From contig OX465103.1 in assembly GCA_949987565.1 (NCBI GenBank), positions 10,367,149 to 10,431,148 on the forward strand: DNA of 64,000 nucleotides, given 5' to 3'. The stretch is from Luidia sarsii (lineage: Eukaryota; Echinodermata; Asteroidea; Paxillosida; Luidiidae). Both the position numbers and the translations under genes were made by a program. This document shows, piece by piece, positions 3,881-64,000 of this stretch (position 1 is the first letter of the stretch; every line of letters begins with the position of its first letter). The notes beneath the pieces were generated by a model that had not been told where the DNA came from, did not search any database, and was given only the letters and a program-made list of their open reading frames with translations.

Positions 3881-4034
3881 TATAACAGGACAAATGTATG
3901 AAGCCAGACCACAATGTCGCAACCCCATTGCCTGTGCATGGTTGCACGGCTTCATACGTACGAACCGTGCCCATTGCCTGTGCATGGCTGCGACATTGTG
4001 GTTTGGCTTCATACGTCTGACTCTGTCCTGTTAT
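3881..4034. mobile_element. Fold-back (MITE-like) element, ~154 bp
   Basis: The two ends are inverted copies: TATAACAGGACA at 3881-3892 and its complement TGTCCTGTTATA at 4023-4034. Inside them the arms continue with GTATGAAGCC and ACCACAATGTCGCA on the left, matched by TGCGACATTGTGGT and GGCTTCATAC on the right. The centre holds a duplicated segment, CATTGCCTGTGCATGG, at about 3928 and 3972. The element lies in a TA-rich setting (TAT on both sides), compatible with a TA target duplication of Tc1/mariner type. No coding capacity is present, so it would be non-autonomous. Confidence 0.6.
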
Positions 4035-8057: not shown

Positions 8058-8135
8058 TGCACATTCGGGAATCGAACCCGTGCTTTCTTGCTACTAGGTC
8101 TACACCGGTCCCTTAGACTGCGCTGAGTTGTCTTG
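8058..8135 (-). pseudogene. tRNA-like sequence, minus strand (family A type)
   Basis: Read on the minus strand, the element ends in GCACGGGTTCGATTCCCG followed by AATGTGCA. This gives a perfect 4-bp T stem (CGGG/CCCG) with the loop TTCGATT and an intact pol III B-box of GGTTCGANNCC form. Upstream, GCGCAGTCTAAGGGACC resembles a D-arm/A-box, and GGTGTAGACC resembles an anticodon stem-loop with TAG in the anticodon position. The acceptor ends do not pair well and position 33 is not T, so a working tRNA is unlikely. The closest resemblance is to tRNA-Leu (D-loop TCTAAGG, TAG anticodon), which is inference only. Confidence 0.6.
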
Positions 8136-8332
8136 AACAAGACTGAAAAAATGATTGATATTTTGTAATTGGGATACCAGTTCTGTTTCTTATTGAATGG
8201 AAAGAAGTTATTTGCTGCTGATCATTTTGATCGGGTTCATTATCATGTTTGGAATCATTTCAATCCATTGATTTATAAAATTGAAATTTAATACTTTTTC
8301 AAGATATAAGTTAACTAATTTCCGGCTAGTTT

Positions 8333-8410
8333 TCGAGATCTCTGATTACTCTAAGTGACTGGTGTAGAACCAGTAACTAGAAAGCGAGGGTTCGAGTCGC
8401 GGATGCTGCA
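8333..8410 (+). pseudogene. tRNA-like sequence, plus strand (family A type)
   Basis: The 78-nt element has an anticodon-arm analogue ACTGG-TGTAGAA-CCAGT with a perfect 5-bp stem and a 7-nt loop; TAG sits at the anticodon position. It also has a T-arm analogue with the loop TTCGAGT. The B-box is GGTTCGAGTCG, which fails at the last bases. The acceptor ends (TCGAGAT and ATGCTGC) pair only partly. Out-of-frame translation of this sequence gives the spurious peptide start TGVEPVTRKRGFESR. Confidence 0.6.
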
Positions 8411-9455
8411 TATTTTATTTCTCAATTCATATTTTTTTCTTTTCTTCATATTTGTCATATTTCTTTGTTTTAATGACTTAAAGAATGGTTCTGTAATACC
8501 TTTATGCTGCATAATTAACCTTATTCAATTCATTATCACCTATGAGAAGCCATTTTGGCAGTGAAAGGCTCGCTGACCATATTTGTAACTTAAAGTAAGT
8601 TGATACCTTTGATTGACGTAACGAAGCTGGCGAAATTTATTCACTAAAATTTCAGCATTGAAAATCTGGAAGAAAAATTGTATTGAAGGTTTTGCTGGAC
8701 ATTAGGAGACGCCATTTTGGCTGCAAAAGGCTCGCTGATCATTTCAGTAACCGATAATAGGTTAATATCTTTGATTGATGTAACAAAGCTGCCGCAATTC
8801 ATTAAGGAATAATTCAGCATTCAAAATCTGGAAAATAAGTTGTATTGAAGGTTATACAGGACATTAGGAGACGTCATTTTGGCTGTGAAAGGCTACCTGA
8901 TCATTTGAGTAACCGATACTAGAATAATATCTTTGATTGACGTAACAAAGCTGCCGCAATTTATTCATTAATTTCCAGCATTCAAAATTGGAAATAAAAG
9001 TTGTATTGAAGGTTTTGCAGGACAATAGGAGCCGCTATTTTGGCTGTGAAAGGATCACTGATCATTTTAATAACTGATAGAAGGTTAATAGTAGGTTAAT
9101 AGTAAGTTAATTGCGAGACAATATGAATCCATATTTACTTACTTCGCTGACCATTTCAGTAACTGATAGTAGGTTTATACCTTTGATTGACGTAACAAAG
9201 GTGCCGCAAATCATTGATTAATATTTCAGCAATCAAAATCGGGAAGGAAATTGTATTGAAGGTATTGCGGGACAATAGGAATCCATATTTAATCAATTAT
9301 GGTAATTAGGAAACTTTCTAATGAGGTTTTAAGTTGTCTTTAGTCATTCTAACAAAACAATCAACAGAGGACACGGTTGTGCAATTCCCGGACTTATTAG
9401 CACAATAAAAAATGAGAAATATGTAAAAACAATGGGGAAAAAATATGGGAAAAAA

Positions 9456-9807
9456 TGCATATTCGGGATTCGAACCCGTGCTTTCTTGCTACTAGGTCTA
9501 CGCGGTCCCCTAGACTGCGCTGAGTTGTCTTCAGGAAGACTGAAAAATTGATTGATATTTTGTAATTGGGATACTATTTCTGTTTTTTATTGAATGGAGA
9601 GAAGTTATTTGCTGCTGATCATTTTGATCGGGTTCATTATCATGTTTGGAATCATTTCAATCCATTGATTTATAAAATTGAAATTTAATACTTTTTCAAG
9701 ATATAAGTTAACTATTTTCCAGCTAGTTTTCGAGATCTCTGATTACTCTAAGTGACTGGTGTAGAACCAGTAACTAGAAAGCGAGGGTTCGAGTCGCGGA
9801 TGCTGCA
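9456..9807. repeat. Family A palindromic core 2
   Basis: Same layout as core 1. The minus-strand tRNA-like arm starts at 9456 with GGGATTCGAACCC, an exact B-box on the minus strand, and the plus-strand arm is 9730-9807. One C is lost in ACGCGGTCCCC compared with the other cores. Confidence 0.85.
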
Positions 9808-10851
9808 TTTTTTTTCTCAATTCATATTTTTTTCTTTTTCTTCATATTTGTCATATGTCTTTGTTTTAATGACTGAAAGAATGGTTCTGTAATACCTTCA
9901 TGCTGCATAATTAACCTTATTCAATTCATTATCACCTAGGAGAAGCCATTTGGGCAGTGAAAGGCTCGCTGACCATATTTGTAACTTAAAGTAAGTTGAT
10001 ACCTTTGATTGACGTAACGAAGCTGGCGAAATTTATTCACTAAAATTTCAGCATTGAAAATCTGGAAGAAAAATTGTATTGAAGGTTTTGCTGGACATTA
10101 GGAGACGCCATTTTGGCTGCAAAAGACTCGCTGATCATTTCAGTAACCGATAATAGGTTAATATCTTTGATTGATGTAACAAAGCTGCCGCAATTCATTA
10201 AGGAATAATTCAGCATTCAAAATCTGGAAAATAAGTTGTATTGAAGGTTATACAGGACATTAGGAGACGTCATTTTGGCTGTGAAAGGCTACCTGATCAT
10301 TTAAGTAACCGATACTAGAATAATATCTTTGATTGACGTAACAAAGCTGCCGCAATTCATTCATTAATTTCCAGCATTTAAAATTGGAAATAAAAGTTGT
10401 ATTGAAGGTTTTGCAGGACAATAGGAGCCGCCATTTTGGCTGTGAAAGGATTACTGATTATTTTAATAACCGATAGTAGGTTAATAGTAGGTTAATAGTA
10501 AGTTAATTGCGAGACAATATGAATCCATATTTACTTACTTCGCTGACCATTTCAGTAACTGATAGTAGGTTTATACCTTTGATTGACGTAACAAAGGTGC
10601 CGCAAATCATTGATTAATATTTCAGCAATCAAAATCGGGAAGGAAATTGTATTGAAGGTATTGCGGGACAATATGAATCCATATTTAATCAATTATGGTA
10701 ATTAGGATACTTTCTAATGAGGTTTTAAGTTGTCTTTAGTCATTCTAACAAAACAATCAACAGAGGACACGGTTGTGTAATTCCCGGACTTATTAGCACA
10801 ATAAAAAATGAGAAATATGTAAGAAAAATGGGGAAAAAATATGGGCAAAAA

Positions 10852-11204
10852 TGCATATTCGGGATTCGAACCCGTGCTTTCTTGCTACTAGGTCTACGCC
10901 GGTCCCCTAGACTGCGCTGAGTTGTCTTCAGGATGACTGAAAAAATGATTGATATTTTGTAATTGGGATACTATTTCTGTTTTTCATTTAATGGAAAGAA
11001 GTTATTTGCTGCTGATCATTTTGATCGAGTTCATTATCATGTTTGGAATCATTTCAATCCATTGATTTATAAAATTGAAATTTAATACTTTTTCAATATA
11101 TAAGTTAACCATTTTCCAGCTACTTTTCGAGATCTCTGATTACTCTAAGTGACTGGTGTAGAACCAGTAACTAGAAAGCGAGGGTTCGAGTCGCGGATGC
11201 TGCA
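10852..11204. repeat. Family A palindromic core 3
   Basis: Same layout. The minus arm begins at 10852 and the plus arm is 11127-11204. The minus arm retains GGGATTCGAACCC (exact B-box). Confidence 0.85.
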
Positions 11205-12246
11205 TTTTTTTTCTCAATTCATAATTTTTTCCTTTCTTCATATTTGTCATATTTCTTTGTTTAATGACTTAAAGAATGGTTCTGTAATACCTTTATGCTG
11301 CATAATTAACCTTATTCAATTCATTATCACCTAGGAGAAGCCATTTGGGCAGTGAAAGGCTCGCTGACCATATTTGTAACTTAAAGTAAGTTGATACCTT
11401 TGATTGACGTAACGAAGCTGGCGAAATTTATTGACTAAAATTTCAGCATTGAAAATCTGGAAGAAAAATTGTATTGAAGGTTTTGCTGGACATTAGGAGA
11501 CGCCATTTTGGCTGCAAAAGACTCGCTGATCATTTCAGTAACCGATAATAGGTTAATATCTTTGATTGATGTAACAAAGCTGCCGCAATTCATTAAGGAA
11601 TAATTCAGCATTCAAAATCTGGAAAATAAGTTGTATTGAAGGTTATACAGGACATTAGGAGACGTCATTTTGGCTGTGAAAGGCTACCTGATCATTTAAG
11701 TAACCGATACTAGAATAATATCTTTGATTGACGTAACAAAGCTGCCGCAATTCATTCGTTAATTTCCAGCATTTAAAATTGGAAATAAAAGTTGTATTGA
11801 AGGTTTTGCAGGACAATAGGAGCCGCCATTTTGGCTGTGAAAGGATTACTGATCATTTTAATAACCGATAGTAGGTTAATAGTAGGTTAATAGTAAGTTA
11901 ATTGCGAGACAATATGAATCCATATTTACTTACTTCGCTGACCATTTCAGTAACTGATAGTAGGTTTATACCTTTGATTGACGTAACAAAGGTGCCGCAA
12001 ATCATTGATTAATATTTCAGCAATCAAAATCGGGAAGGAAATTGTATTGAAGGTATTGCGGGACAATAGGAATCCATATTTAATCAATTATGGTAATTAG
12101 GATACTTTCTAATGAGGTTTTAAGTTGTCTTTAGTCATTCTAACAAAACAATCAACAGAGGACACGGTTGTGCTATTCCCGGACTTATTAGCACAATAAA
12201 AAATGAGAAATATGTAAGAAAAATGGGGAAAAAATATGGGCAAAAA

Positions 12247-12599
12247 TGCATATTCGGGATTCGAACCCGTGCTTTCTTGCTACTAGGTCTACGCCGGTCC
12301 CCTAGACTGCGCTGAGTTGTCTTCAGGAAGACTGAAAAAATGATTGATATTTTGTAATTGGGATACTATTTCTGTTTTTTATTGAATGGAGAGAAGTTAT
12401 TTGCTGCTGATCATTTTGATCGGGTTCATTATCATGTTTGGAATCATTTCAATCCATTGATTTATAAAATTGAAATGTAATACTCTTTCAAGATATAAGT
12501 TAACTATTTTCCAGCTACTTTTCGAGATCTCTGATTACTCTAAGTGACTGGTGTAGAACCAGTAACTAGAAAGCGAGTGTTCGAGTCGCGGATGCTGCA
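12247..12599. repeat. Family A palindromic core 4
   Basis: Same layout, with the plus arm at 12522-12599. The plus-strand B-box is damaged here, reading GTGTTCGAG instead of GGGTTCGAG. This is the last family A core before the family A/B junction. Confidence 0.85.
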
Positions 12600-13491
12600 T
12601 TTTTTTTCTCAATTCATATTTTTTTCTTTTCTTCATATTTGTCATATTTCTTTGTTTTAATGACTTAAAGAATGGTTCTGTAATACCTTTATGTTGCATA
12701 ATTAACCTTATTCAATTCATTATCACCTAGGAGAAGCCATTTGGGCAGTGAAAGGCTCGCTGACCATATTTGTAACTTAAAGAAGTTGAAACCTTTGATT
12801 GACGTAACGAAGCTGGCGAAATTTATTCACTAAAATTTCAGCATTGAAAATCTGGAAGAAAAATTGTATTGAAGGTTTTGCTGGACATTAGGAGACGCCA
12901 TTTTGGCTGCAAAAGGCTCGCTGATCATTTCAGTAACCGATAATAGGTTAATATCTTTGATTGATGTAACAAAGCTGCCGCAATTCATTAAGGAATAATT
13001 CAGCATTCAAAATCTGGAAAATAAGTTGTATTGAAGGTTATACAGGACATTAGGAGACGTCATTTTGGCTGTGAAAGGCTACCTGATCATTTGAGTAACC
13101 GATACTAGAATAATATCTTTGATTGACGTAACAAAGCTGCCGCAATTCATTCATTAATTTCCAGCATTCAAAATTGGAAATAAAAGTTGTATTGAAGGTT
13201 TTGCAGGACAATAGGAGCCGCCATTTTGGCTGTGAAAGGATCACTGATCATTTTAATAACCGATAGTAGGTTAATAGTAGGTTAATAGTAAGTTAATTGC
13301 GAGACAATATGAATCCATATTTACTTACTTCGCTTACCATTTCAGTAACTGATATATTAATTTTAAGTTGTCTTTAGTCATTTTTACTAAACAATCAACG
13401 GTCGTCACGGTTGTGCAATTACCGGAGTAATTAGCACAATAAAAAATGAAAAATATGTAAAACAATGGAGAAAAAAAAATGGGGAAAAAAA

Positions 13492-13569
13492 TTGCACATT
13501 CCGGATTCGAACCAGTGCTTTCTTTCTACTGGTTCTACGCCGGTCCCCTAGACTGCGCAGAGTTGTCTT
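13492..13569 (-). pseudogene. tRNA-like sequence, minus strand (family B example)
   Basis: On the minus strand the T-arm region reads ACTGGTTCGAATCCGGA, which includes a perfect pol III B-box (GGTTCGAATCC). A D-arm-like CTCT ... AGGG stem, a GCGCAGTCTAGG A-box-like stretch and an anticodon-arm analogue ACCGG-CGTAGAA-CCAGT (4 of 5 pairs, TAG in the anticodon slot) precede it. The acceptor ends do not pair. In 10 of 43 family B copies the B-box carries a single change (GGTTCGCATCC). It could still bind TFIIIC, but a mature tRNA is improbable. Confidence 0.6.
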
Positions 13570-13768
13570 GAACTAAGCAAAAATAAGCGATTGATATGTT
13601 GTAATCGGGATACTATTTCTATTTCTTATTGCATTGAAAGAAGTTCTTTGTTTCTGATCATTTTGATCGGATTCATTTTGATGCTTCAAATCATTTCAAT
13701 CAATTCATTTAAAAAATGGAAATTTATTCCAATTTCAAAATGTAAATGAACTATTTTCCTACTAGTTT

Positions 13769-13846
13769 TCAACATGTTAGTATGCTCTGATGGACTGGTG
13801 TAGAACCAGTAAGTATAATGCACGGGTTCGAGTCACGGATGTTGCA
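13769..13846 (+). pseudogene. tRNA-like sequence, plus strand (family B example)
   Basis: This 78-nt element has full tRNA proportions: acceptor-like TCAACAT pairing with ATGTTGC over six base pairs (CAACAT/ATGTTG), two spacer bases, a ~16-nt D-arm region, a perfect anticodon-arm analogue ACTGG-TGTAGAA-CCAGT, an 11-nt variable region, a T-loop TTCGAGT, and a terminal A. The T stem is weak (ACGGG/CACGG) and the B-box reads GGTTCGAGTCA. Position 33 is G. Later copies vary at the acceptor 3' side: GGAAGTTGCA in many, GGATGTTACA in those following 36667, 58862, 62153 and 63465. This is a tRNA-derived relic, homologous in inverted orientation to its minus-strand partner. Confidence 0.6.
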
Positions 13847-14158
13847 ATTTTTTTTCTCAATTTATTAATTTTTATTTTCTTCATATTTGTCATATTTCAT
13901 TGTTTTTATCACTCAAAGGATGCTTCTGTGATACTTTTATGCTGCATAATTAACCTTATTCAATTCATAATCACCTAGGAGACCACATTTTGTCTGTGAA
14001 AGACTCTCTGTCCTTTTCAGTAACCTATAGTAAGTTAATATCTTTGATTGACGTAACAAAGCTGCCGCAATTCATTTATTAATATTTCAGCAATCAAAAT
14101 ATGATAGAAAAATTGTATTGAAGGTATTGCGGGACAATAAGAGACGCAATTTTGGCTC

Positions 14159-14320
14159 TGAAAGGCTCGCAGACAATTTCAGTAACCTATAGTAAGTTGA
14201 TACCTTTGATTGACTTAACAAAGGTGCCGCAGTTCATTTATTAATATTTCAGCAATCAAAATATGATAGAAAAATTGTATTGAAGGTATTGCGGGACGAT
14301 AAGAGACGCAATTCTGGCTC
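14159..14320. repeat. Example of the 162-bp monomer (middle type)
   Basis: The distance between successive TGAAAGGCTCGCAGAC landmarks (14159 and 14321) is exactly 162 bp. Landmarks in order: GGCTCGCAGAC, CAGTAACCTATAGTAAG, TTGATTGACTTAAC, AAGGTGCCGCA, TTATTAATATTTCAGC, TTGTATTGAAGGTATTGCGG, AAGAGACGCAATT. Three positional types exist in each unit. The first monomer carries GACGTAACAAAGCTGCC. Middle monomers carry GACTTAACAAAGGTGCC. The terminal monomer switches after TTTCAG to TTTTAAATATGGGGACAAG and leads into the core. Confidence 0.92.
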
Positions 14321-17300
14321 TGAAAGGCTCGCAGACCATTTCAGTAACCTATAGTAAGTTGATACCTTTGATTGACTTAACAAAGGTGCCGCAATTCATT
14401 TATTAATATTTCAGCAATCAAAATATGATAGAAAAATTGTATTGAAGGTATTGCGGGACAATAAGAGACGCAATTTTGGCTCTAAAAGGCTCGCAGACCA
14501 TTTCAGTAACCTCTAGTAAGTTGATGCCTTTGATTGACTTAACAAAGGTGCCGCAATTCATTTATTAATATTTCAGTTTTAAATATGGGGACAAGAATAT
14601 GTATTGAAGGTGTTACGGGACAATAGGAATCCATATTTAATCACTTATGGTAATTAGGATACTTTTTAATGAGATTTTAAGTTGTCTTTAGTCATTTTTA
14701 CTAAACAATCAACGGTCGTCACGGTTGTGCAATTACCGGAGTAATTAGCACAATAAAAAATGAAAAATATGTAAAACAATGGAGAAAAAAAAATGGGGAA
14801 AAAAATTGCACATTCCGGATTCGAACCAGTGCTTTCTTTCTACTGGTTCTACGCCGGTCCCTTAGACTGCGCAGAGTTGTCTTGAACTAATCAAAAATAA
14901 GCGATTGATATGTTGTAATCGGGATACTATTTCTATTTCTTATTGAATTGAAAGAAGTTCTTTGTTTCTGATCATTTTGATCGTATTCATTTTGATGCTT
15001 CAAATCATTTCAATCAATTCATTTAAAAAATTGAAATTTATTCCAATTTCAAAATGTAAATGAACTATTTTTCTACTAGTTTTCAACATGTCAGTATGCT
15101 CTGATGGACTGGTGTAGAACCAGTAAGTAGAATGCACGGGTTCGAGTCACGGAAGTTGCAATTTTTTTTCTCAATTTATTAATTTTTATTTACTTCATAT
15201 TTGTCATATTTCATTGTTTTTATCACTCAAAGGATGCTTCTGTGATACTTTTATGCTGCATAATTAACCTTATTCAATTCATAATCACCTAGGAGACGCC
15301 TTTTTGGCTGTGAAAGACTCTCTGTCCTTTTCAGTAACCTATAGTTAGTTAATATCTTTGATTGACGTAACAAAGCTGCCGCAATTCATTTATTAATATT
15401 TCAGCAATCAAAATATGATAGAAAAATTGTATTGAAGTTATTGCGGGACAATAAGAGACGCAATTTTGGCTCTGAAAGGCTCGCAGACCATTTCAGTAAC
15501 CTATAGTAAGTTGATACCTTTGATTGACTTAACAAAGGTGCCGCAATTCATTTATTAATATTTCAGCAATCAAAATATGATAGAAAAATTGTATTGAAGG
15601 TATTGCGGGACAATAAGAGACGCAATTTTGGCTCTGAAAGGCTCGCAGACCATTACAGTAACCTATAGTAAGTTGATACCTTTGATTGACTTAACAAAGG
15701 TGCCGCAATTCATTTATTAATATTTCAGTTTTAAATATGGGGACAAGAATATGTATTTAAGGTATTGCGGGACAATAGGAATCCATATTTAATCACTTAT
15801 GGTAATTAGGATACTTTTTAATGAGATTTTAAGTTGTCTTTAGTCATTTTTACTAAACAATCAACGGTCTTCACGGTTGTGCAATTACCGGAGTAATTAG
15901 CACAATAAAAAATGAAAAATATGTAAAACAATGGAGAAAAAAAAATTGGGAAAAAAATTGCACATTCCGGATTCGAACCAGTGCTTTCTTTCTACTGGTT
16001 CTACGCCGGTCCCCTAGACTGCGCAGAGTTGTCTTGAACTAAGCAAAAATAAGCGATTGATATGTTGTAATCGGGATACTATTTCTATTTCTTATTGAAT
16101 TGAAAGAAGTTCTTTGTTTCTGATCATTTTGATCGTATTAATTTTGATGCTTCAAATCATTTCAATCAATTCATTTAAAAAATTGAAATTTATTCCAATT
16201 TCAAAATGTAAATGAACTATTTTCCTACTAGTTTTCAACATGTCAGTATGCTCTGATGGACTGGTGTAGAACCAGTAAGTAGAATGCACGGGTTCGAGTC
16301 ACGGAAGTTGCAATTTTTTTTCTCAATTTATTAATTTTTATTTACTTCATATTTGTCATATTTCATTGTTTTTATCACTCAAAGGATGCTTCTGTGATAC
16401 TTTTATGCTGCATAATTAACCTTATTCAATTCATAATCACCTAGGAGACGCCTTTTTGGCTGTGAAAGACTCTCTGTCCTTTTCAGTAACCTATAGTTAG
16501 TTAATATCTTTGATTGACGTAACAAAGCTGCCGCAATTCATTTATTAATATTTCAGCAATCTAAATATGATAGAAAAATTGTATTGAAGTTATTGCGGGA
16601 CAATAAGAGACGCAATTTTGGCTCTAAAAGGCTCGCAGACCATTTCAGTAACCTATAGTCAGTTGATGCCTTTGATTGACTTAACAAAGGTGCCGCAATT
16701 CATTTATTAATATTTCAGTTTTAAATATGGGGACAAGAATATGTATTGAAGGTGTTACGGGACAATAGGAATCCATATTTAATCACTTATGGTAATTAGG
16801 ATACTTTTTAATGAGATTTTAAGTTGTCTTTAGTCATTTTTACTAAACAATCAACGGTCGTCACGGTTGTGCAATTACCGGAGTAATTAGCACAATAAAA
16901 AATGAAAAATATGTAAAACAATGGAGAAAAAAAAATGGGGAAAAAAATTGCACATTCCGGATTCGAACCAGTGCTTTCTTTCTACTGGTTCTACGCCGGT
17001 CCCTTAGACTGCGCAGAGTTGTCTTGAACTAATCAAAAATAAGCGATTGATATGTTGTAATCGGGATACTATTTCTATTTCTTATTGAATTGAAAGAAGT
17101 TCTTTGTTTCTGATCATTTTGATCGTATTCATTTTGATGCTTCAAATCATTTCAATCAATTCATTTAAAAAATTGAAATTTATTCCAATTTCAAAATGTA
17201 AATGAACTATTTTTCTACTAGTTTTCAACATGTCAGTATGCTCTGATGGACTGGTGTAGAACCAGTAAGTAGAATGCACGGGTTCGAGTCACGGAAGTTG

Positions 17301-19109
17301 CAATTTTTTTTCTCAATTTGTTAATTTTTATTTACTTCATATTTGTCATATTTCATTGTTTTTATCACTCAAAGGATGCTTCTGTGATACTTTTATGCTG
17401 CATAATTAACCTTATTCAATTCATAATCACCTAGGAGACGCCTTTTTGGCTGTGAAAGACTCTCTGTCCTTTTCAGTAACCTATAGTTAGTTAATATCTT
17501 TGATTGACGTAACAAAGCTGCCGCAATTCATTTATTAATATTTCAGCAATCAAAATATGATAGAAAAATTGTATTGAAGTTATTGCGGGACAATTAGAGA
17601 CGCAATTTTGGCTCTGAAAGGCTCGCAGACCATTTCAGTAACCTATAGTAAGTTGATACCTTTGATTGACTTAACAAAGGTGCCGCAATTCATTTATTAA
17701 TATTTCAGCAATCAAAATATGATAGAAAAATTGTATTGAAGGTATTGCGGGACAATAAGAGACGCAATTTTGGCTCTGAAAGGCTCGCAGACCATTACAG
17801 TAACCTATAGTAAGTTGATACCTTTGATTGACTTAACAAAGGTGCCGCAATTCATTTATTAATATTTCAGTTTTAAATATGGGGACAAGAATATGTATTT
17901 AAGGTATTGCGGGACAATAGGAATCCATATTTAATCACTTATGGTAATTAGGATACTTTTTAATGAGATTTTAAGTTGTCTTTAGTCATTTTTACTAAAC
18001 AATCAACGGTCTTCACGGTTGTGCAATTACCGGAGTAATTAGCACAATAAAAAATGAAAAATATGTAAAACAATGGAGAAAAAAAAATTGGGAAAAAAAT
18101 TGCACATTCCGGATTCGAACCAGTGCTTTCTTTCTATTGGTTCTACGCCGGTCCCCTAGACTGCGCAGAGTTGTCTTGAACTAAGCAAAAATAAGCGATT
18201 GATATGTTGTAATCGGGATACTATTTCTATTTCTTATTGAATTGAAAGAAGTTCTTTGTTTCTGATCATTTTGATCGTATTAATTTTGATGCTTCAAATC
18301 ATTTCAATCAATTCATTTAAAAAATTGAAATTTATTCCAATTTCAAAATGTAAATGAACTATTTTCCTACTAGTTTTCAACATGTCAGTATGCTCTGATG
18401 GACTGGTGTAGAACCAGTAAGTAGAATGCACGGGTTCGAGTCACGGAAGTTGCAATTTTTTTTCTCAATTTATTACTTTTTATTTACTTCATATTTGTCA
18501 TATTTCATTGTTTTTATCACTCAAAGGATGCTTCTGTGATACTTTTATGCTGCATAATTAACCTTATTCAATTCATAATCACCTAGGAGACGCCTTTTTG
18601 GCTGTGAAAGACTCTCTATCCTTTTCAGTAACCTATAGTTAGTTAATATCTTTGATTGACGTAACAAAGCTGCCGCAATTCATTTATTAATATTTCAGCA
18701 ATCTAAATATGATAGAAAAATTGTATTGAAGTTATTGCGGGACAATAAGAGACGCAATTTTGGCTCTGAAAGGCTCGCAGACCATTTCAGTAACCTATAG
18801 TAAGTTGATACCTTTGATTGACTTAACAAAGGTGCCGCAATTCATTTATTAATATTTCAGCAATCAAAATATGATAGAAAAATTGTATTGAAGGTATTGC
18901 GGGACAATAAGAGACGCAATTTTGGCTCTGAAAGGCTCGCAGACTATTTCAGTAACCTATAGTAAGTTGATACCTTTGATTGACTTAACAAAGGTGCCGC
19001 AATTCATTTATTAATATTTCAACAATCAAAATATGATAGAAAAATTGTATTGAAGGTATTGCGGGACAATAAGAGACGCAATTTTGGCTCTAAAAGGCTC
19101 GCAGACCAT
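14178..19109. repeat. 4,932-bp tandem block duplication, copy 1
   Basis: This block and the next (19110-24041) match almost base for base at an offset of 4,932 bp. Shared private variants include the CAGTTCATTT plus GGGACGATAAG monomer (14241/19173 region), TCAATTTGTTAATT (17313/22245), TCTATTGGTTCTAC (18133/23065) and TTTATTACTTTT (18470/23402). Both breakpoints lie inside 162-bp monomer tracts. Confidence 0.88.
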
Positions 19110-47300: not shown

Positions 47301-47946
47301 ATCGGGATACTATTTCTATTTCTTATTGAATTGAAAGAAGTTCTTTGTTTCTGATCATTTTGATCGTATTAATTTTGATGCTTCAAATCATTTCAATCAA
47401 TTCATTTAAAAAATTGAAATTTATTCCAATTTCAAAATGTAAATGAACTATTTTCCTACTAGTTTTCAACATGTCAGTATGCTCTGATGGACTGGTGTAG
47501 AACCAGTAAGTAGAATGCACGGGTTCGAGTCACGGAAGTTGCAATTTATTTTCTCAATTTATTAATTTTTATTTACTTCATATTTGTCATATTTCAATGT
47601 TTTTATCACTCAAAGGATGCTTCTGTGATACTTTTATGCTGCATAATTAACCTTATTCAATTCATAATCACCTAGGAGACGCCTTTTTGGCTGTGAAAGA
47701 CTTTCTGTCCTTTTCAGTAACCTATAGTTAGTTAATATCTTTGATTGACGTAACAAAGCTGCCGCAATTCATTTATTAATATTTCAGCAATCTAAATATG
47801 ATAGAAAAATCGTATTGAAGTTATTGCGGGACAATAAGAGACGCAATTTTGGCTCTGAAAGGCGCGCAGACCATTTCAGTAACCTATAGTAAGTTGATAC
47901 CTTTGATTGACTTAACAAAGGTGCCGCAATTCATTTATTAATATTT
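42110..47946. repeat. ~5.8-kb block repeated at an offset of 9,533 bp (copy at 51643-57479)
   Basis: Cores 42422, 43572, 44885, 46038 and 47190 correspond to 51955, 53105, 54419, 55571 and 56723. The rare shared changes CAAGGGAGAAAA (46008/55541), CTGCGTAGAGTTGTCGTG (46097/55630) and GCAATTTATTTTCTC (47540/57074) mark them as one duplication. A few private single-base changes separate the copies, for example TGTAGAACCTGTAAG only at 53410. Confidence 0.85.
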
Positions 47947-50900: not shown

Positions 50901-53900
50901 ATTGATATGTTGTAATCGGGATACTATTTCTATTTCTTATTGAATTGAAAGAAGTTCTTTGTTTCTGATCATTTTGATCGGATTCATTTTGATGCTTCAA
51001 ATCATTTCAATCAATTCATTTAAAAAATTGAAATTTATTCCAATTTCAAAATGTAAATGAAATATTTTCCTACTAGTTTTCAACATGTCAGTGTGCTCTG
51101 ATGGACTGGTGTAGAACCAGTAAGTAGAATGCACGGGTTCGAGTCACGGATGTTGCAATTTTTTTCTCAATTTATTAATTTTTATTTTCTTCATATTTGT
51201 CATATTTCATTGTTTTTATCACTCAAAGGATGCTTCTGTGATACTTTTATGCTGCATAATTAACCTTATTCAATTCATAATCACCTAGGAGACGCCATTT
51301 TGTCTGTGAAAGACTCTCTGTCCTTTTCAGTAACCTATAGTAAGTTAATATCTTTGATTGACGTAACAAAGCTGCCGCAATTCATTTATTAATATTTCAG
51401 CAATCAAAATATGATAGAAAAATTGTATTGAAGGTATTGCGGGACAATAAGAGACGCAATTTTGGCTCTGAAAGGCTCGCAGACAATTTCAGTAACCTAT
51501 AGTAAGTTAATATCTTTGATTGACGTAACAAAGCTGCCGCAATTCATTTATTAATATTTCAGCAATCAAAATATGATAGAAAAATTGTATTGAAGGTATT
51601 GCGGGACAATAAGAGACGCAATTTTGGCTCTGAAAGGCTCGCAGACAATTTCAGTAACCTATAGTAAGTTGATACCTTTGATTGACTTAACAAAGGTGCC
51701 GCAATTCATTTATTAATATTTCAGTTTTAAATATGGGGACAAGAATATGTATTTAAGGTGTTGCGGGACAATAGGAATCCATATTTAATCACTTATGGTA
51801 ATTAGGATACTTTTTAATGAGATTTTAAGTTGTCTTTAGTCATTTTTACTAAACAATCAACGGTCTTCACGGTTGTGCAATTACCGGAGTAATTAGCACA
51901 ATAAAAAATGAAAAATATGTAAAAAAATGGAGAAAAAAAAATTGGGAAAAAAATTGCACATTCCGGATTCGAACCAGTGCTTTCTTTCTACTGGTTCTAC
52001 GCCGGTCCCCTAGACTGCGCAGAGTTGTCTTGAACTAAGCAAAAATAAGCGATTGATATGTTGTAATCGGGATACTATTTCTATTTCTTATTGAATTGAA
52101 AGAAGTTCTTTGTTTCTGATCATTTTGATCGGATTCATTTTGATGCTTCAAATCATTTCAATCAATTCATTTAAAAAATTGAAATTTATTCCAATTTCAA
52201 AATGTAAATGAACTATTTTCCTACTAGTTTTCAACATGTCAGTATGCTCTGATGGACTGGTGTAGAACCAGTAAGTAGAATGCACGGGTTCGAGTCACGG
52301 AAGTTGCAATTTTTTTTCTCAATTTATTAATTTTTATTTACTTCATATTTGTCATATTTCATTGTTTTTATCACTCAAAGGATGCTTCTGTGATACTTTT
52401 ATGCTGCATAATTAACCTTATTCAATTCATAATCACCTAGGAGACGCCTTTTTGGCTGTGAAAGACTCTCTGTCCTTTTCAGTAACCTATAGTTAGTTAA
52501 TATCTTTGATTGACGTAACAAAGCTGCCGCAATTCATTTATTAATATTTCAGCAATCTAAATATGATAGAAAAATTGTATTGAAGTTATTGCGGGACAAT
52601 AAGAGACGCAATTTTGGCTCTGAAAGGCTCGCAGACCATTTCAGTAACCTATAGTAAGTTGATACCTTTGATTGACTTAACAAAGGTGCCGCAATTCATT
52701 TATTAATATTTCAACAATCAAAATATGATAGAAAAATTGTATTGAAGGTATTGCGGGACAATAAGAGACGCAATTTTGGCTCTAAAAGGCTCGCAGACCA
52801 TTACAGTAACCTATAGTAAGTTGATACCTTTGATTGACTTAACAAAGGTGCCGCAATTCATTTATTAATATTTCAGTTTGAAATATGGGGACAAGAATAT
52901 GTATTTAAGGTGTTGCGGGACAATAGGAATCCATATTTAATCACTTATGGTAATTAGGATACTTTTTAATGAGATTTTAAGTTGTCTTTAGTCATTTTTA
53001 CTAAACAATCAACGGTCTTCACGGTTGTGCAATTACCGGAGTAATTAGCACAATAAAAAATGAAAAATATGTAAAACAATGGAGAAAAAAAAATGGGGAA
53101 AAAATGGCACATTCCGGATTCGAACCAGTGCTTTCTTTCTACTGGTTCTACGCCGGTCCCCTAGACTGCGCAGAGTTGTCTTGAACTAAGCAAAAATAAG
53201 CGATTGATATGTTGTAATCGGGATACTATTTCTATTTCTTATTGAATTGAAAGAAGTTCTTTGTTTCTGATCATTTTGATCGGATTCATTTTGATGCTTC
53301 AAATCATTTCAATCAATTCATTTAAAAAATTGAAATTTATTCCAATTTCAAAATGTAAATGAACTATTTTCCTACTAGTTTTCAACATGTCAGTGTGCTC
53401 TGATGGACTGGTGTAGAACCTGTAAGTAGAATGCACGGGTTCGAGTCACGGATGTTGCAATTTTTTTCTCAATTTATTAATTTTTATTTTCTTCATATTT
53501 GTCATATTTCATTGTTTTTATCACTCAAAGGATGCTTCTGTGATACGTTTATGCTGCATAATTAACCTTATTCAATTCATAATCACCTAGGAGACGCCAT
53601 TTTGTCTGTGAAAGACTCTCTGTCCTTTTCAGTAACCTATAGTAAGTTAATATCTTTGATTGACGTAACAAAGCTGCCGCAATTCATTTATTAATATTTC
53701 AGCAATCAAAATATGATAGAAAAATTGTATTGAAGGTATTGCGGGACAATAAGAGACGCAATTTTGGCTCTGAAAGGCTCGCAGACAATTTCAGTAACCT
53801 ATAGTAAGTTGATACCTTTGATTGACTTAACAAAGGTGCCGCAATTCATTTATTAATATTTCAGCAATCAAAATATGATAGAAAAATTGTATTGAAGGTA

Positions 53901-56900
53901 TTGCGGGACGATAAGAGACGCAATTCTGGCTCTGAAAGGCTCGCAGACCATTTCAGTAACCTATAGTAAGTTGATACCTTTGATTGACTTAACAAAGGTG
54001 CCGCAATTCATTTATTAATATTTCAGCAATCAAAATATGATAGAAAAATTGTATTGAAGGTATTGCGGGACAATAAGAGACGCAATTTTGGCTCTGAATG
54101 GCTCGCAGACCATTTCAGTAACCTCTAGTAAGTTGATACCTTTGATTGACTTAACAAAGGTGCCGCAATTCATTTATTAATATTTCAGTTTTAAATATGG
54201 GGACAAGAATATGTATTTAAGGTGTTGCGGGACAATAGGAATCCATATTTAATCACTTATGGTAATTAGGATACTTTTTAATGAGATTTTAAGTTGTCTT
54301 TAGTCATTTTTACTAAACAATCAACGGTCGTCACCGTTGTGCAATTACCGGAGTAATTAGCGCAATAAAAAATGAAAAATATGTAAAACAATGGAGAAAA
54401 AAAAATGGGGAAAAAAATTGCACATTCCGGATTCGAACCAGTGCTTTCTTTCTACTGGTTCTACGCCGGTCCCTTAGACTGCGCAGAGTTGTCTTGAACT
54501 AAGCAAAAATAAGCGATTGATATGTTGTAATCGGGATACTATTTCTATTTCTTATTGAATTGAAAGAAGTTCTTTGTTTCTGATCATTTTGATCGTATTC
54601 ATTTTGATGCTTCAAATCATTTCAATCAATTCATTTAAAAAATTGAAATTTATTCCAATTTCAAAATGTAAATGAACTATTTTCCTACTAGTTTTCAACA
54701 TGTCAGTATGCTCTGATGGACTGGTGTAGAACCAGTAAGTAGAATGCACGGGTTCGAGTCACGGAAGTTGCAATTTTTTTTCTCAATTTATTAATTTTTA
54801 TTTACTTCATATTTGTCATATTTCATTGTTTTTATCACTCAAAGGATGCTTCTGTGATACTTTTATGCTGCATAATTAACCTTATTCAATTTATAATCAC
54901 CTAGGAGACGCCTTTTTGGCTGTGAAAGACTTTCTGTCCTTTTCAGTAACCTATAGTTAGTTAATATATTTGATTGACGTAACAAAGCTGCCGCAATTCA
55001 TTTATTAATATTTCAGCAATCAAAATATGATAGAAAAATTGTATTGAAGTTATTGCGGGACAATAAGAGACGCAATTTAGGCTCTGAAAGGCTCGCAGAC
55101 CATTTCAGTAACCTATAGTAAGTTGATACCTTTGATTGACTTAACAAAGGTGCCGCAATTCATTTATTAATATTTCAGCAATCAAAATATGATAGAAAAA
55201 TTGTATTGAAGGTATTGCGGGACAATAAGAGACGCAATTTTGGCTCTGAAAGGCTCGCAGACCATTACAGTAACCTATAGTAAGTTGATACCTTTGATTG
55301 ACTTAACAAAGGTGCCGCAATTCATTTATTAATATTTCAGTTTTAAATATGGGGACAAGAATATGTATTTAAGGTGTTGCGGGACAATAGGAATCCATAT
55401 TTAATCACTTATGGTAATTAGGATACTTTTTAATGAGATTTTAAGTTGTCTTTAGTCATTTTTACTAAACAATCAACGGTCTTCACGGTTGTGCAATTAC
55501 CGGAGTAATTAGCACAATAAAAAATGAAAAATATGTAAAACAAGGGAGAAAAAAAAATGGGGAAAAAAATTGCACATTCCGGATTCGAACCAGTGCTTTC
55601 TTTCTACTGGTTCTACGCCGGTCCCCTAGACTGCGTAGAGTTGTCGTGAACTAAGCAAAAATAAGCGATTGATATGTTGTAATCGGGATACTATTTCTAT
55701 TTCTTATTGAATTGAAGGAAGTTCTTTGTTTCTGATCATTTTGATCGTATTAATTTTGATGCTTCAAATCATTTCAATCAATTCATTTAAAAAATTGAAA
55801 TTTATTCCAATTTCAAAATGTAAATGAACTATTTTCCTACTAGTTTTCAACATGTCAGTATGCTCTGATGGACTGGTGTAGAACCAGTAAGTAGAATGCA
55901 CGGGTTCGAGTCACGGAAGTTGCAATTTTTTTTCTCAATTTATTAATTTTTATTTACTTCATATTTGTCATATTTCATTGTTTTTATCACTCAAAGGATG
56001 CTTCTGTGATACTTTTATGCTGCATAATTAACCTTATTCAATTTATAATCACCTAGGAGACGCCTTTTTGGCTGTGAAAGACTTTCTGTCCTTTTCAGTA
56101 ACCTATAGTTAGTTAATATCTTTGATTGACGTAACAAAGCTGCCGCAATTCATTTATTAATATTTCAGCAATCTAAATATGATAGAAAAATTGTATTGAA
56201 GTTATTGCGGGACAATAAGAGACGCAATTTTGGCTCTGAAAGGCTCGCAGACTATTTCAGTAACCTATAGTAAGTTGATACCTTTGATTGACTTAACAAA
56301 GGTGCCGCAATTCATTTATTAATATTTCAACAATCAAAATATGATAGAAAAATTGTATTGAAGGTATTGCGGGACAATAAGAGACGCAATTTTGGCTCTA
56401 AAAGGCTCGCAGACCATTACAGTAACCTATAGTAAGTTGATACCTTTGATTGACTTAACAAAGGTGCCGCAATTCATTTATTAATATTTCAGTTTTAAAT
56501 ATGGGGACAAGAATATGTATTTAAGGTGTTGCGGGACAATAGGAATCCATATTTAATCACTTATGGTAATTAGGATACTTTTTAATGAGATTTTAAGTTG
56601 TCTTTAGTCAGTTTTACTAAACAATCAACGGTCGTCACGGTTGTGCAATTACCGGAGTAATTAGCGCAATAAAAAATGAAAAATATGTAAAACAATGGAG
56701 AAAAAAAACATGGGGAAAAAATTGCACATTCCGGATGCGAACCAGTGCTTTCTTTCTACTGGTTCTACGCCGGTCCCTTAGACTGCGCAGAGTTGTCTTG
56801 AACTAAGCAAAAATAAGCGATTGATATGTTGTAATCGGGATACTATTTCTATTTCTTATTGAATTGAAAGAAGTTCTTTGTTTCTGATCATTTTGATCGT

Positions 56901-57429
56901 ATTCATTTTGATGCTTCAAATCATTTCAATCAATTCATTTAAAAAATTGAAATTTATTCCAATTTCAAAATGTAAATGAACTATTTTCCTACTAGTTTTC
57001 AACATGTCAGTATGCTCTGATGGACTGGTGTAGAACCAGTAAGTAGAATGCACGGGTTCGAGTCACGGAAGTTGCAATTTATTTTCTCAATTTATTAATT
57101 TTTATTTACTTCATATTTGTCATATTTCAATGTTTTTATCACTCAAAGGATGCTTCTGTGATACTTTTATGCTGCATAATTAACCTTATTCAATTCATAA
57201 TCACCTAGGAGACGCCTTTTTGGCTGTGAAAGACTTTCTGTCCTTTTCAGTAACCTATAGTTAGTTAATATCTTTGATTGACGTAACAAAGCTGCCGCAA
57301 TTCATTTATTAATATTTCAGCAATCTAAATATGATAGAAAAATCGTATTGAAGTTATTGCGGGACAATAAGAGACGCAATTTTGGCTCTGAAAGGCTCGC
57401 AGACCATTTCAGTAACCTATAGTAAGTTG

Positions 57430-60400
57430 GTACCTTTGATTGACTTAACAAAGGTGCCGCAATTCATTTATTAATATTTCAGTTTTAAATATGGGGACAA
57501 GAATATGTATTTAAGGTGTTGCGGGACAATAGGAATCCATATTTAATCACTTATGGTAATTAGGATACTTTTTAATGAGATTTTAAGTTGTCTTTAGTCA
57601 TTTTTACTAAACAATCAACGGTCTTCACGGTTGTGCAATTACCGGAGTAATTAGCACAATAAAAAATGAAAAATATGTAAAACAATGGAGAAAAAAAAAT
57701 GGGGAAAAAATTGCACATTCCGGATTCGAACCAGTGCTTTCTTTCTACTGGTTCTACGCCGGTCCCCTAGACTGCGCAGAGTTGTCTTGAACTAAGCAAA
57801 AATAAGCGATTGATATGTTGTAATCGGGATACTATTTCTATTTCTTATTGAATTGAAAGAAGTTCTTTGTTTCTGATCATTTTGATCGGATTCATTTTGA
57901 TGCTTCAAATCATTTCAATCAATTCATTTAAAAAATTGAAATTTATTCCAATTTCAAAATGTAAATGAAATATTTTCCTACTAGTTTTCAACATGTCAGT
58001 GTGCTCTGATGGACTGGTGTAGAACCAGTAAGTAGAATGCACGGGTTCGAGTCACGGATGTTGCAATTTTTTTCTCAATTTATTAATTTTTATTTTCTTC
58101 ATATTTGTCATATTTCATTGTTTTTATCACTCAAAGGATGCTTCTGTGATACTTTTATGCTGCATAATTAACCTTATTCAATTCATAATCACCTAGGAGA
58201 CGCCATTTTGTCTGTGAAAGACTCTCTGTCCTTTTCAGTAACCTATAGTAAGTTAATATCTTTGATTGACGTAACAAAGCTGCCGCAATTCATTTATTAA
58301 TATTTCAGCAATCAAAATATGATAGAAAAATTGTATTGAAGGTATTGCGGGACAATAAGAGACGCAATTTTGGCTCTGAAAGGCTCGCAGACAATTTCAG
58401 TAACCTATAGTAAGTTGATACCTTTGATTGACTTAACAAAGGTGCCGCAATTCATTTATTAATATTTCAGCAATCAAAATATGATAGAAAATTTGTATTG
58501 AAGGTATTGCGGGACGATAAGAGACGCAATTCTGGCTCTGAAAGGCTCGCAGACCATTTCAGTAACCTATAGTAAGTTGATACCTTTGATTGACTTAACA
58601 AAGGTGCCGCAATTCATTTATTAATATTTCAGTTTTAAATATGGGGACAAGAATATGTATTGAAGGTGTTACGGGACAATAGGAATCCATATTTAATCAC
58701 TTATGGTAATTAGGATACTTTTTAATGAGATTTTAAGTTGTCTTTAGTCATTTTTACTAAACAATCAACGGTCGTCACGGTTGTGCAATTACCGGAGTAA
58801 TTAGCGCAATAAAAAATGAAAAATATGTAAAACAATGGAGAAAAAAAAATGGGGAAAAAATTGCACATTCCGGATGCGAACCAGTGCTTTCTTTCTACTG
58901 GTTCTACGCCGGTCCCTTAGACTGCGCAGAGTTGTCTTGAACTAAGCAAAAATAAGCGATTGATATGTTGTAATCGGGATACTATTTCTATTTCTTATTG
59001 AATTGAAAGAAGTTCTTTGTTTCTGATCATTTTGATCGGATTCATTTTGATGCTTCAAATCATTTCAATCAATTCATTTAAAAAATTGAAATTTATTCCA
59101 ATTTCAAAATGTAAATGAACTATTTTCCTACTAGTTTTCAACATGTCAGTGTGCTCTGATGGACTGGTGTAGAACCAGTAAGTAGAATGCACGGGTTCGA
59201 GTCACGGATGTTACAATTTTTTTCTCAATTTATTAATTTTTATTTTCTTCATATTTGTCATATTTCATTGTTTTTATCACTCAAAGGATGCTTCTGTGAT
59301 ACTTTTATGCTGTATAATTAACCTTATTCAATTCGTAATCACCTAGGAGACGCCATTTTGGCTGTGAAAGACTCTCTGTCCTTTTCAGTAACCTATAGTT
59401 AGTTAATATCTTTGATTGACGTAACAAAGCTGCCGCAATTCATTTATTAATATTTCAGCAATCAAAATATGATAGAAAATTTGTATTGAAGGTATTGCGG
59501 GACAATAAGAGACGCAATTTTGGCTCTGAAAGGCTCGCAGACCATTTCAGTAACCTATAGTAAGTTGATACCTTTGATTGACGTAACAAAGGTGCCGCAA
59601 TTCATTTATTAATATTTCAGTTTTAAATATGGGGACAAGAATATGTATTTAAGGTGTTGCGGGACAATAGGAATCCATATTTAATCACTTATGGTAATTA
59701 GGATACTTTTTAATGAGATTTTAAGTTGTCTTTAGTCATTTTTACTAAACAATCAACGGTCTTCACGGTTGTGCAATTACCGGAGTAATTAGCACAATAA
59801 AAAATGAAAAATATGTAAAACAATGGAGAAAAAAAAATGGGGAAAAAAATTGCACATTCCGGATTCGAACCAGTGCTTTCTTTCTACTGGTTCTACGCCG
59901 GTCCCCTAGACTGCGCAGAGTTGTCTTGAACTAAGCAAAAATAAGCGATTGATATGTTGTAATCGGGATACTATTTCTATTTCTTATTGAATTGAAAGAA
60001 GTTCTTTGTTTCTGATCATTTTGATCGTATTAATTTTGATGCTTCAAATCATTTCAATCAATTCATTTAAAAAATTGAAATTTATTCCAATTTCAAAATG
60101 TAAATGAACTATTTTCCTACTAGTTTTCGACATGTCAGTATGCTCTGATGGACTGGTGTAGAACCAGTAAGTAGAATGCACGGGTTCGAGTCACGGAAGT
60201 TGCAATTTTTTTTCTCAATTTATTAATTTTTATTTACTTCATATTTGTCATATTTCATTGTTTTTATCACTCAAAGGATGCTTCTGTGATACTTTTATGC
60301 TGCATAATTAACCTTATTCAATTCATAATCACCTAGGAGACGCCTTTTTGGCTGTGAAAGACTTTCTGTCCTTTTCAGTAACCTATAGTTAGTTAATATC

Positions 60401-62911
60401 TTTGATTGACGTAACAAAGCTGCCGCAATTCATTTATTAATATTTCAGCAATCTAAATATGATAGAAAAATTGTATTGAAGTTATTGCGGGACAATAAGA
60501 GACGCAATTTTGGCTCTGAAAGGCTCGCAGACCATTTCAGTAACCTATAGTAAGTTGATACCTTTGATTGACTTAACAAAGGTGCCGCAATTCATTTATT
60601 AATATTTCAACAATCAAAATATGATAGAAAAATTGTATTGAAGGTATTGCGGGACAACAACAGACGCAATTTTGGCTCTAAAAGGCTCGCAGACCATTAC
60701 AGTAACCTATAGTCAGTTGATACCTTTGATTGACTTAACAAAGGTGCCGCAATTCATTTATTAATATTTCAGTTTTAAATATGGGGACAAGAATATGTAT
60801 TTAAGGTGTTGCGGGACAATAGGAATCCATATTTAATCACTTATGGTAATTAGGATACTTTTTAATGAGATTTTAAGTTGTCTTTAGTCATTTTTACTAA
60901 ACAATCAACGGTCTTCACGGTTGTGCAATTACCGGAGTAATTAGCACAATAAGAAATGAATAATATGTAAAACAATGGAGAAAAAAAAATGGGGAAAAAA
61001 AGTGCACATTCCGGATTCGAACCAGTGCTTTCTTTCTACTGGTTCTACGCCGGTCCCCTAGACTGCGCAGAGTTGTCTTGAACTAAGCAAAAATAAGCGA
61101 TTGATATGTTGTAATCGGGATACTATTTCTATTTCTTATTGAATTGAAAGAAGTTCTTTGTTTCTGATCATTTTGATCGGATTCATTTTGATGCTTCAAA
61201 TCATTTCAATCAATTCATTTAAAAAATTGAAATTTATTCCAATTTCAAAATGTAAATGAACTATTTTCCTACTAGTTTTCAACATGTCAGTGTGCTCTGA
61301 TGGACTGGTGTAGAACCAGTAAGTAGAATGCACGGGTTCGAGTCACGGATGTTGCAATTTTTTTCTCAATTTATTAATTTTTATTTTCTTCATATTTGTC
61401 ATATTTCATTGTTTTTATCACTCAAAGGATGCTTCTGTGATACTTTTATGCTGCATAATTAACCTTATTCAATTCATAATCACCTAGGAGACGCCATTTT
61501 GTCTGTGAAAGACTCTCTGTCCTTTTCAGTAACCTATAGTAAGTTAATATCTTTGATTGACGTAACAAAGCTGCCGCAATTCATTTATTAATATTTCAGC
61601 AATCAAAATATGATAGAAAAATTGTATTGAAGGTATTGGGGGACAATAAGAGACGCAATTTTGGCTCTGAAAGGCTCGCAGACAATTTCAGTAACCTATA
61701 GTAAGTTGATACCTTTGATTGACTTAACAAAGGTGCCGCAATTCATTTATTAATATTTCAGCAATCAAAATATGATAGAAAAATTGTATTGAAGGTATTG
61801 CGGGACGATAAGAGACGCAATTCTGGCTCTGAAAGGCTCGCAGACCATTTCAGTAACCTATAGTAAGTTGATACCTTTGATTGACTTAACAAAGGTGCCG
61901 CAATTCATTTATTAATATTTCAGTTTTAAATATGGGGACAAGAATATGTATTGAAGGTGTTACGGGACAATAGGAATCCATATTTAATCACTTATGGTAA
62001 TTAGGATACTTTTTAATGAGATTTTAAGTTGTCTTTAGTCATTTTTACTAAACAATCAACGGTCGTCACGGTTGTGCAATTACCGGAGTAATAAGCGCAA
62101 TAAAAAATGAAAAATATGTAAAACAATGGAGAAAAAAAAATGGGGAAAAAATTGCACATTCCGGATGCGAACCAGTGCTTTCTTTCTACTGGTTCTACGC
62201 CGGTCCCTTAGACTGCGCAGAGTTGTCTTGAACTAAGCAAAAATAAGCGATTGATATGTTGTAATCGGGATACTATTTCTATTTCTTATTGAATTGAAAG
62301 AAGTTCTTTGTTTCTGATCATTTTGATCGGATTCATTTTGATGCTTCAAATCATTTCAATCAATTCATTTAAAAAATTGAAATTTATTCCAATTTCAAAA
62401 TGTAAATGAACTATTTTCCTACTAGTTTTCAACATGTCAGTGTGCTCTGATGGACTGGTGTAGAACCAGTAAGTAGAATGCACGGGTTCGAGTCACGGAT
62501 GTTACAATTTTTTTCTCAATTTATTAATTTTTATTTTCTTCATATTTGTCATATTTCATTGTTTTTATCACTCAAAGGATGCTTCTGTGATACTTTTATG
62601 CTGTATAATTAACCTTATTCAATTCATAATCACCTAGGAGACGCCATTTTGGCTGTGAAAGACTCTCTGTCCTTTTCAGTAACCTATAGTTAGTAAATAT
62701 CTTTGATTGACGTAACAAAGCTGCCGCAATTCATTTATTAATATTTCAGCAATCAAAATTCGATAGAAAATTTGTATTGAAGGTATTGCGGGACAATAAG
62801 AGACGCAATTTTGGCTCTGAAAGGCTCGCAGACCATTTCAGTAACCTATAGTAAGTTGATACCTTTGATTGACGTAACAAAGGTGCCGCAATTCATTTAT
62901 TAATATTTCAG
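57430..62911. repeat. ~2.2-kb block repeated at an offset of 3,291 bp (57430-59620 and 60721-62911)
   Basis: Cores 57712 and 58862 match 61003 and 62153 at the same offset. Both copies share GGATGTTACAATTTT and ATGCTGTATAATTAACC. About 1.1 kb of other array sequence lies between the two copies. Confidence 0.75.
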
Positions 62912-64000
62912 CAATCAAAATATGATAGAACAATTGTATTGAAGTTATTGCGGGACAATAAGAGACGCAATTTTGGCTCTGAAAGGCTCGCAGACCATTT
63001 CAGTAACCTATAGTAAGTTGATACCTTTGATTGACTTAACAAAGGTGCCGCAATTCATTTATTAATATTTCAGCAATCAAAATATGATAGAAAAATTGTA
63101 TTGAAGGTATTGCGGGACAATGAGAGACGCAATTTTGGCTCTGAAAGGCTCGCAGACCATTTCAGTAACCTATAGTAAGTTGATACCTTTGATTGACTTA
63201 ACAAAGGTGCCGCAATTCATTTATTAATATTTCAGTTTTAAATATGGGGACAAGAATATGTATTGAAGGTGTTACGGGACAATAGGAATCCATATTTCAT
63301 CACTTATGGTAATTAGGATACTTTTTAATGAGATTTTAAGTTGTCTTTAGTCATTTTTACTAAACAATCAACGGTCGTCACGGTTGTGCAATTACCGGAG
63401 TAATTAGCACAATAAAAAATGAAAAATATGTAAAACAATGGAGAAAAAAAAATGGGGAAAAAATTGCACATTCCGGATGCGAACCAGTGCTTTCTTTCTA
63501 CTGGTTCTACGCCGGTCCCTTAGACTGCGCAGAGTTGTCTTGAACTAAGCAAAAATAAGCGATTGATATGTTGTAATCGGGATACTATTTCTATTTCTTA
63601 TTGAATTGAAAGAAGTTCTTTGTTTCTGATCATTTTGATCGGATTCATTTTGATGCTTCAAATCATTTCAATCAATTCATTTAAAAAATTGAAATTTATT
63701 CCAATTTCAAAATGTAAATGAACTATTTTCCTACTAGTTTTCAACATGTCAGTGTGCTCTGATGGACTGGTGTAGAACCAGTAAGTAGAATGCACGGGTT
63801 CGAGTCACGGATGTTACAATTTTTTTCTCAATTTATTAATTTTTATTTTCTTCATATTTGTCATATTTCATTGTTTTTATCACTCAAAGGATGCTTCTGT
63901 GATACTTTTATGCTGTATAATTAACCTTATTCAATTCGTAATCACCTAGGAGACGCCATTTTGGCTGTGAAAGACTCTCTGTCCTTTTCAGTAACCTATA

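Follow-up and report, generated by a model that had tools for sequence, protein, structure and literature searches.

Each unit of a satellite array in Luidia sarsii carries two tRNA-like sequences in inverted orientation. Where does such a pair come from, and does it serve the array or is it only carried along by it? We addressed this question in the window, meaning the whole stretch of 64,000 nucleotides that was analysed, and all coordinates below refer to it.

Organisation of the array

The flank before ~6.7 kb includes one or more protein-coding exons, one of them encoding a WW domain, and the DNA of the window is animal-like. In a protein search, the WW-domain exon found no match at E up to 0.001. 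A minisatellite with 18- and 42-bp periods (2218-2721 and 2776-3264) lies beside it. The array itself is built from groups of 162-bp monomers alternating with a constant module.

6680..64000 (limits approximate), no strand assigned: composite satellite array; monomer similarity rises at ~6660-6700
7998..13424 (limits approximate), no strand assigned: family A units, n=4
13425..64000 (limits approximate), no strand assigned: family B units, n=43
15455..15616, plus strand: representative 162-bp monomer; the score of the core against it lies below the shuffle maximum on both strands

The four family A units come first and are followed by the 43 units of family B. On the left, the array begins inside 162-bp monomers, while on the right it runs off the 64-kb window; the last listed 162-bp array ends at 63284 and the last core extends to ~63885. 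Unit spacing equals 666 + 162n, with n between 2 and 6 and a tolerance of 2 bases, in 42 of 46 cases, and the four spacings that depart from this formula all start in family A units. Units are very similar to one another, with a mean match per column to the family consensus of 97% in family A and 99% in family B. Kinship between the core or its flanks and the 162-bp monomer was considered and rejected, as scores stayed below the shuffle maximum in six of six comparisons. At the left array edge (7229-7300), a 162-bp monomer passes into the right-flank module without a preceding core; the two sides of this junction share TAATACCTTT, and it resembles a junction of unequal exchange.

The tRNA-like arms lie within a longer palindrome

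Fuzzy seeds, with errors allowed, located 47 minus-strand and 47 plus-strand tRNA-like arms in the window (first pair at 8061/8350, last pair at 63470/63761), in agreement with the one inverted pair per core reported in an earlier note on this DNA. That note also credited the plus copies with a perfect anticodon arm and, in family B, with a paired acceptor stem. The anticodon-arm string ACTGG-TGTAGAA-CCAGT is exact in 46 of 47 plus arms, so the first statement stands but for one exception. The second holds in part only, since the 3' tail of family B reads ATGTTGC in 13, AAGTTGC in 26 and ATGTTAC in 4 of the 43 units, and the stem forms 6/7 pairs in the unit at 13770 and 5/7 in the commoner form (16234). 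All plus arms except one carry GGTTCGAGTCA or GGTTCGAGTCG (46/47; the remaining one matches neither), and GGTTCGAATCC is exact in 35/47 minus arms. As regards a SINE, which would show a tRNA head, a body, a LINE-related part, a simple tail and dispersed copies, the arms are followed on their 3' side by a T run and an AT-rich stretch. A 21-base arm string gave no exact match in viral contigs.

Inverted alignment of one core half with the other succeeds in all 47 units, scoring 51-82, while none of 47 shuffled controls exceeds 18. The homology proposed between the inverted 78-nt elements is therefore present, but these elements are not free-standing. The palindrome arms are 71% identical on average (47 units) and ~214-229 nt long in the four units whose limits were determined, and together they make up an imperfect palindrome of ~490 bp in family B. 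As the inverted homology spans far beyond 78 nt, the tRNA-like pair occupies the middle of a longer inverted repeat. Outside the core, inverted homology did not rise beyond shuffles (37.9 versus top controls of 51.6-53.9).

15891..16380, no strand assigned: palindrome of a representative family B unit; arms at 15891-16116 (left) and ~16153-16380 (right), 161/223 aligned positions identical

The hairpin potential claimed for the core is borne out by folding. RNA of 15890-16410 (521 nt) has a predicted energy of -166.8 kcal/mol (z -13.7), and folding of 15890-16380 as DNA gives z -9.2. Among single-arm folds, one of five (B minus, z -2.1) beats most shuffles, and its shape is not a cloverleaf. 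A short local hairpin, TTGTGCAATTAC...GTAATTAGCACAA, spans the left outer end of the palindrome in the representative unit (15877-15905). Matches to the plant miRNA families MIR7533 and MIR7723 were discarded, as they fell well short of gathering scores and the foldback accounts for them. A plant miRNA model was also matched through shape by a second, unrelated foldback in the flank (~3880-4038; arms TATGAAGCC...GGCTTCATA, outer arms TATAACAGGACA...TGTCCTGTTATA), which resembles a MITE.

Long inverted repeats in 47/47 units are what a MITE or foldback element would carry. A DNA transposon of the foldback or MITE type could have supplied the palindrome arms as its long terminal inverted repeats, in which case the tRNA-like piece would be captured or coincidental. 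Such an element would end either at the outer margins of the palindrome or, if the array is head-to-tail, in the middle of the palindrome, so that the 162-bp monomers would be internal. The long arms and short spacer fit this proposal, and MITEs combined with tandem repeats have precedents in Xstir and miDNA4 of Xenopus, as far as the available part of that source describes them (PMC12628747). Yet no target-site duplication or terminal motif was recognised by eye, the left array edge falls within 162-bp monomers, and the likeness to tRNA exceeds that of shuffles, with T runs at the expected place (see below). We consider a foldback origin the main rival explanation, possible if rather unlikely; it may be compatible with tRNA-derived arms. 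The tandem repeats at the centre and a hairpin next to the core also brought Helentron-type elements into consideration as possible candidates.

Likeness to tRNA

A functional tRNA gene would be expected to be recognised by ARAGORN at default settings or by the Rfam tRNA model, and neither was the case. ARAGORN found no tRNA in the 64-kb window, and RF00005 was not listed at E up to 10 for the window and two small stretches; Rfam lists only the best match of a clan, so that a weak tRNA match may sit hidden beneath the tmRNA hit on the first family A minus arm. Lowered ARAGORN thresholds were judged too permissive to be used: there were no hits at 95% and one, on a plus arm, at 90%, while plus arms received 12 of 54 hits at 85% and 45 of 96 at 80% (none on minus arms), and minus arms 23 of 155 at 75%.

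We then compared the arms with tRNA references, which were human genes. A cloverleaf scorer was built from 17 class I tRNAs, with the length of the variable region left free, and was applied to one representative per arm type and 1000 dinucleotide shuffles. The representatives scored -15.9 (A minus), -19.1 (B minus) and -16.8 and -14.5 (two forms of B plus), and none of the 1000 shuffles matched any of them. The A plus arm, at -43.0, is at chance level (203/1000 shuffles reach it). Antisense strands scored between -49 and -71, at shuffle level, and three tRNAs of the training set 87 to 90. The best of 1320 overlapping flank windows (-18.4) beats B minus but not A minus or B plus. Statistical support for tRNA relatedness therefore extends to three of four arm types, A plus being the exception, and the earlier note's description of all arms as tRNA-like needs to be narrowed accordingly. 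Of the two outcomes it had named together as speaking against its own reading, the first, scores no better than shuffles in both arms, was not found.

Two covariance models were used in addition, a class I model (R1) and a model of seven human Leu and Ser tRNAs (R2), the latter scanned over the window at E up to 10; E-values are rough. Representative matches are as follows.

15958..16025, minus strand: representative minus tRNA-like arm; R2 10.9 bits, R1 12.2 bits, exact B box at 15969-15979
16234..16313, plus strand: representative plus tRNA-like arm, commonest form; R2 12.1 bits
41708..41787, plus strand: plus arm among the seven with the highest scores; 20.0 bits with R2 (rough E 0.0014)
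8066..8080, minus strand: match to a T arm within the first minus arm of family A; 13.6 bits against the T arm of the tmRNA model, 12.9 bits with R1

R2 gave 91 hits, of which 89 fall in sense on the 94 arms; as these are copies of one another, they are worth few independent observations, not 89. All 43 family B plus arms were matched end to end (9.9 to 20.0 bits). Matches were also obtained for 46/47 minus arms (7.4 to 12.8 bits), six of them through the T arm only, and for none of the four plus arms of family A. In family B, the most frequent plus form (25/43 arms) scores 12.1 bits, and 15/43 arms, at 16.7-20.0, are more tRNA-like. The top score of 20.0 bits compares with 9.2 for the best match off the arms, and lies far below the three real E. 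coli tRNAs used as a control (48.4, 36.0 and 32.7 bits). R1 gave 83 hits, the top 36 of which are all minus arms (4/4 of family A, 32/43 of family B), with a best score of 12.9 bits, through the T arm, in family A and 12.2 in family B. None of its hits is in sense on a plus arm: of the 47 lower-ranking hits, 46 run antisense to plus arms and a single one falls outside the arms. In a region with three real E. coli tRNAs, R1 scored 68.3, 49.7 and 32.8 bits. On these results, the likeness of the arms to tRNA is, as judged from sequence, real, strongly decayed and a better fit to class II.

The 3' ends point in the same direction. TTTT begins 19-22 nt past the start of TTCG, that is, at the predicted tRNA 3' end, in 47/47 minus and 45/47 plus arms, and a 3' oligo-T run as expected of a functional tRNA gene is thus present in 92/94 arms. 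As background, TTTT occurs within 24 nt at 25% of sampled places in the array.

Plain alignment was less clear about the tRNA concerned. The best partners were Thr for A minus, Leu for A plus, Phe for B minus, and Gly or Glu for B plus. Of 500 shuffles, none reached A minus or B minus, four reached A plus, and 33 and 36 reached B plus; the best of 264 flank windows (16.5) equalled the best arm, which we counted against a derivation from tRNA. A majority consensus of the four arms reached a mean of 17.0 against the tRNAs, compared with 13.0-16.5 for single arms and 15.3 for random picks at the variable sites, and 2/900 shuffles attained this mean. The highest single alignment score, 24.5, came from a random pick; the maximum of the majority consensus was 21.5. 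Leu was the best partner in 185 of 300 majority-consensus draws; by inspection, the TAG read as anticodon and the ~11-nt variable region fit Leu too. The isotype is uncertain, and Leu appears to be a possible to probable candidate.

Could the likeness be due to chance, with a T-arm-like hairpin and another short hairpin falling within an old palindrome? The silence of RF00005 at E up to 10, the lack of ARAGORN hits at default or at 95% with a single one at 90% of threshold, and the similar plain alignment scores of flank windows would all be in keeping with this, and the arms, being homologous, are not independent evidence. Against it stand the 0/1000 shuffles for three of four arm types, the gap between the best R2 score and the best one off the arms, and the position of the T runs. 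We consider chance unlikely.

Promoter boxes and history of the arms

The earlier note reported a perfect B box in most minus copies, and we find the same: GGTTCGANNCC is exact in 36/47 minus arms and in 0/47 plus arms. These 36 occurrences, which are mutual copies, are the only ones in the window, where shuffling predicts 0.11. The A box tells little, as its best match has one mismatch in 94/94 arms and 40% of 3000 random flank places are equal or better. The internal A and B boxes of a functional tRNA gene are thus not present as a set.

The history of the arms was read from a four-arm alignment of 194 ungapped columns. In 97 columns all four arms are identical, in 35 the arms differ while the families agree, and in 42 a change in one arm has left a match in a single family. 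A single column changed in both arms together, and 19 fit no category. This pattern suggests that the inverted duplication is older than the split between families A and B, that there was no conversion between the arms, and that the hairpin has not been maintained by compensating changes. The arms agree with each other more often over the 3' half of the tRNA-like part, where 42/55 columns are identical in each family, than over the 5' half taken together with the inner flank (57/106 in A, 60/107 in B; Fisher p 0.006 and 0.016). The better conservation of the 3' half could reflect past constraint. The outer flank, outside that Fisher test, has 23/37 (A) and 24/35 (B) identical columns. Among the 43 B units, 14/155 columns of the tRNA-like parts are polymorphic versus 9/200 of the inner part (Fisher p 0.13); polymorphism is not lower in the tRNA-like parts, so there is no sign of constraint.

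These data bear on the proposal that the arms are functional, with B boxes acting as regularly spaced TFIIIC sites or with the palindrome giving rise to a long hairpin RNA, the two roles put forward in the earlier note. The canonical B box, the strong predicted hairpin and the better conserved 3' half speak for it. On the other side, A-box matches do not surpass those in random flank, B units vary no less in the tRNA-like parts than in the inner part, there is one concerted column against 42 one-sided ones, and the commonest B plus form scores below the 15 arms that are more tRNA-like. Beyond the B box itself, we find nothing in favour of these roles, and consider functional arms distinctly unlikely. 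In a more elaborate version, B boxes in most units would recruit TFIIIC every ~1.0-1.6 kb, the opposed arms would give a hairpin RNA, and the tRNA-derived inverted pair would set the chromatin state of the satellite. Such a working chromatin element is highly improbable.

Origin of the array and related systems

We favour the view, to which we would give about an even chance, that a sequence derived from a class II tRNA, perhaps a Leu-like one, was duplicated in inverted orientation long ago, and that the resulting pair is now a decaying passenger of a composite satellite. The duplicated stretch would have comprised a 5' leader, the tRNA sequence and a T-run terminator, and its inverted duplication would have produced the ~490-bp palindrome. 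As the four-arm alignment suggests, this probably took place before the families split, after which the arms would have diverged without mutual conversion and lost different parts of the tRNA fold. The palindrome would then belong to a constant module of ~666 bp, and the composite unit would consist of this module and direct repeats of the 162-bp monomer, of which a family B unit has between 2 and 6. The 162-bp steps in unit length suggest that units were multiplied and homogenised by unequal exchange. The tRNA-like pair is most likely a passenger without a present role. On this reading, the array displays an order of events, from inverted duplication through family split to amplification of the present arrays, in which a decayed tRNA sequence was carried by the growth of a satellite. 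Were its B boxes bound, the array would in addition represent a naturally occurring series of spaced TFIIIC sites.

The statement that the array is unlike ordinary satellite DNA was too strong, since tandem repeats containing tRNA sequence have already been described: the available part of one source names OAX in Xenopus, PolIII/TAN in the newt Cynops, Rana/polIII and Hy/polIII (called questionable), together with SINE-derived satellites in squamates (PMC10702118). In the titles and abstract openings that form most of the open-licence literature consulted, we found no report of an inverted tRNA-like pair in each satellite unit. The Xenopus OAX repeat (satellite I) is, like the array here, a tandem repeat with a tRNA-derived segment; as far as the accessible text goes, it is described with one central tRNA segment, whereas here an inverted pair lies in a palindrome with 162-bp monomers in between (PMC10702118). 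PolIII/TAN, Rana/polIII and Hy/polIII are likewise tRNA-like tandem repeats, with units of ~200-360 nt and, in Rana/polIII, a tRNA likeness of only 64% over 64 nt; the accessible text does not mention an inverted pair in them (PMC10702118). Squam1-3 of squamate reptiles resemble the present array in being satellites, made from parts of tRNA-headed SINEs, but according to the same partial source they trace to identified SINEs, unlike the array here (PMC10702118). Xstir and miDNA4, inverted-repeat elements of Xenopus tied to tandem arrays, share that association with the array here; unlike it, they are recognised MITEs and, in the part of the source available, not called tRNA-like (PMC12628747).

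With 47 tandem units and tRNA-related sequence in each, the array is a variant of the tRNA-containing satellite DNA known from amphibians and reptiles, and the inverted palindromic pair is its new twist, which would widen the small set of tRNA-related satellites by a palindromic form with inverted copies.
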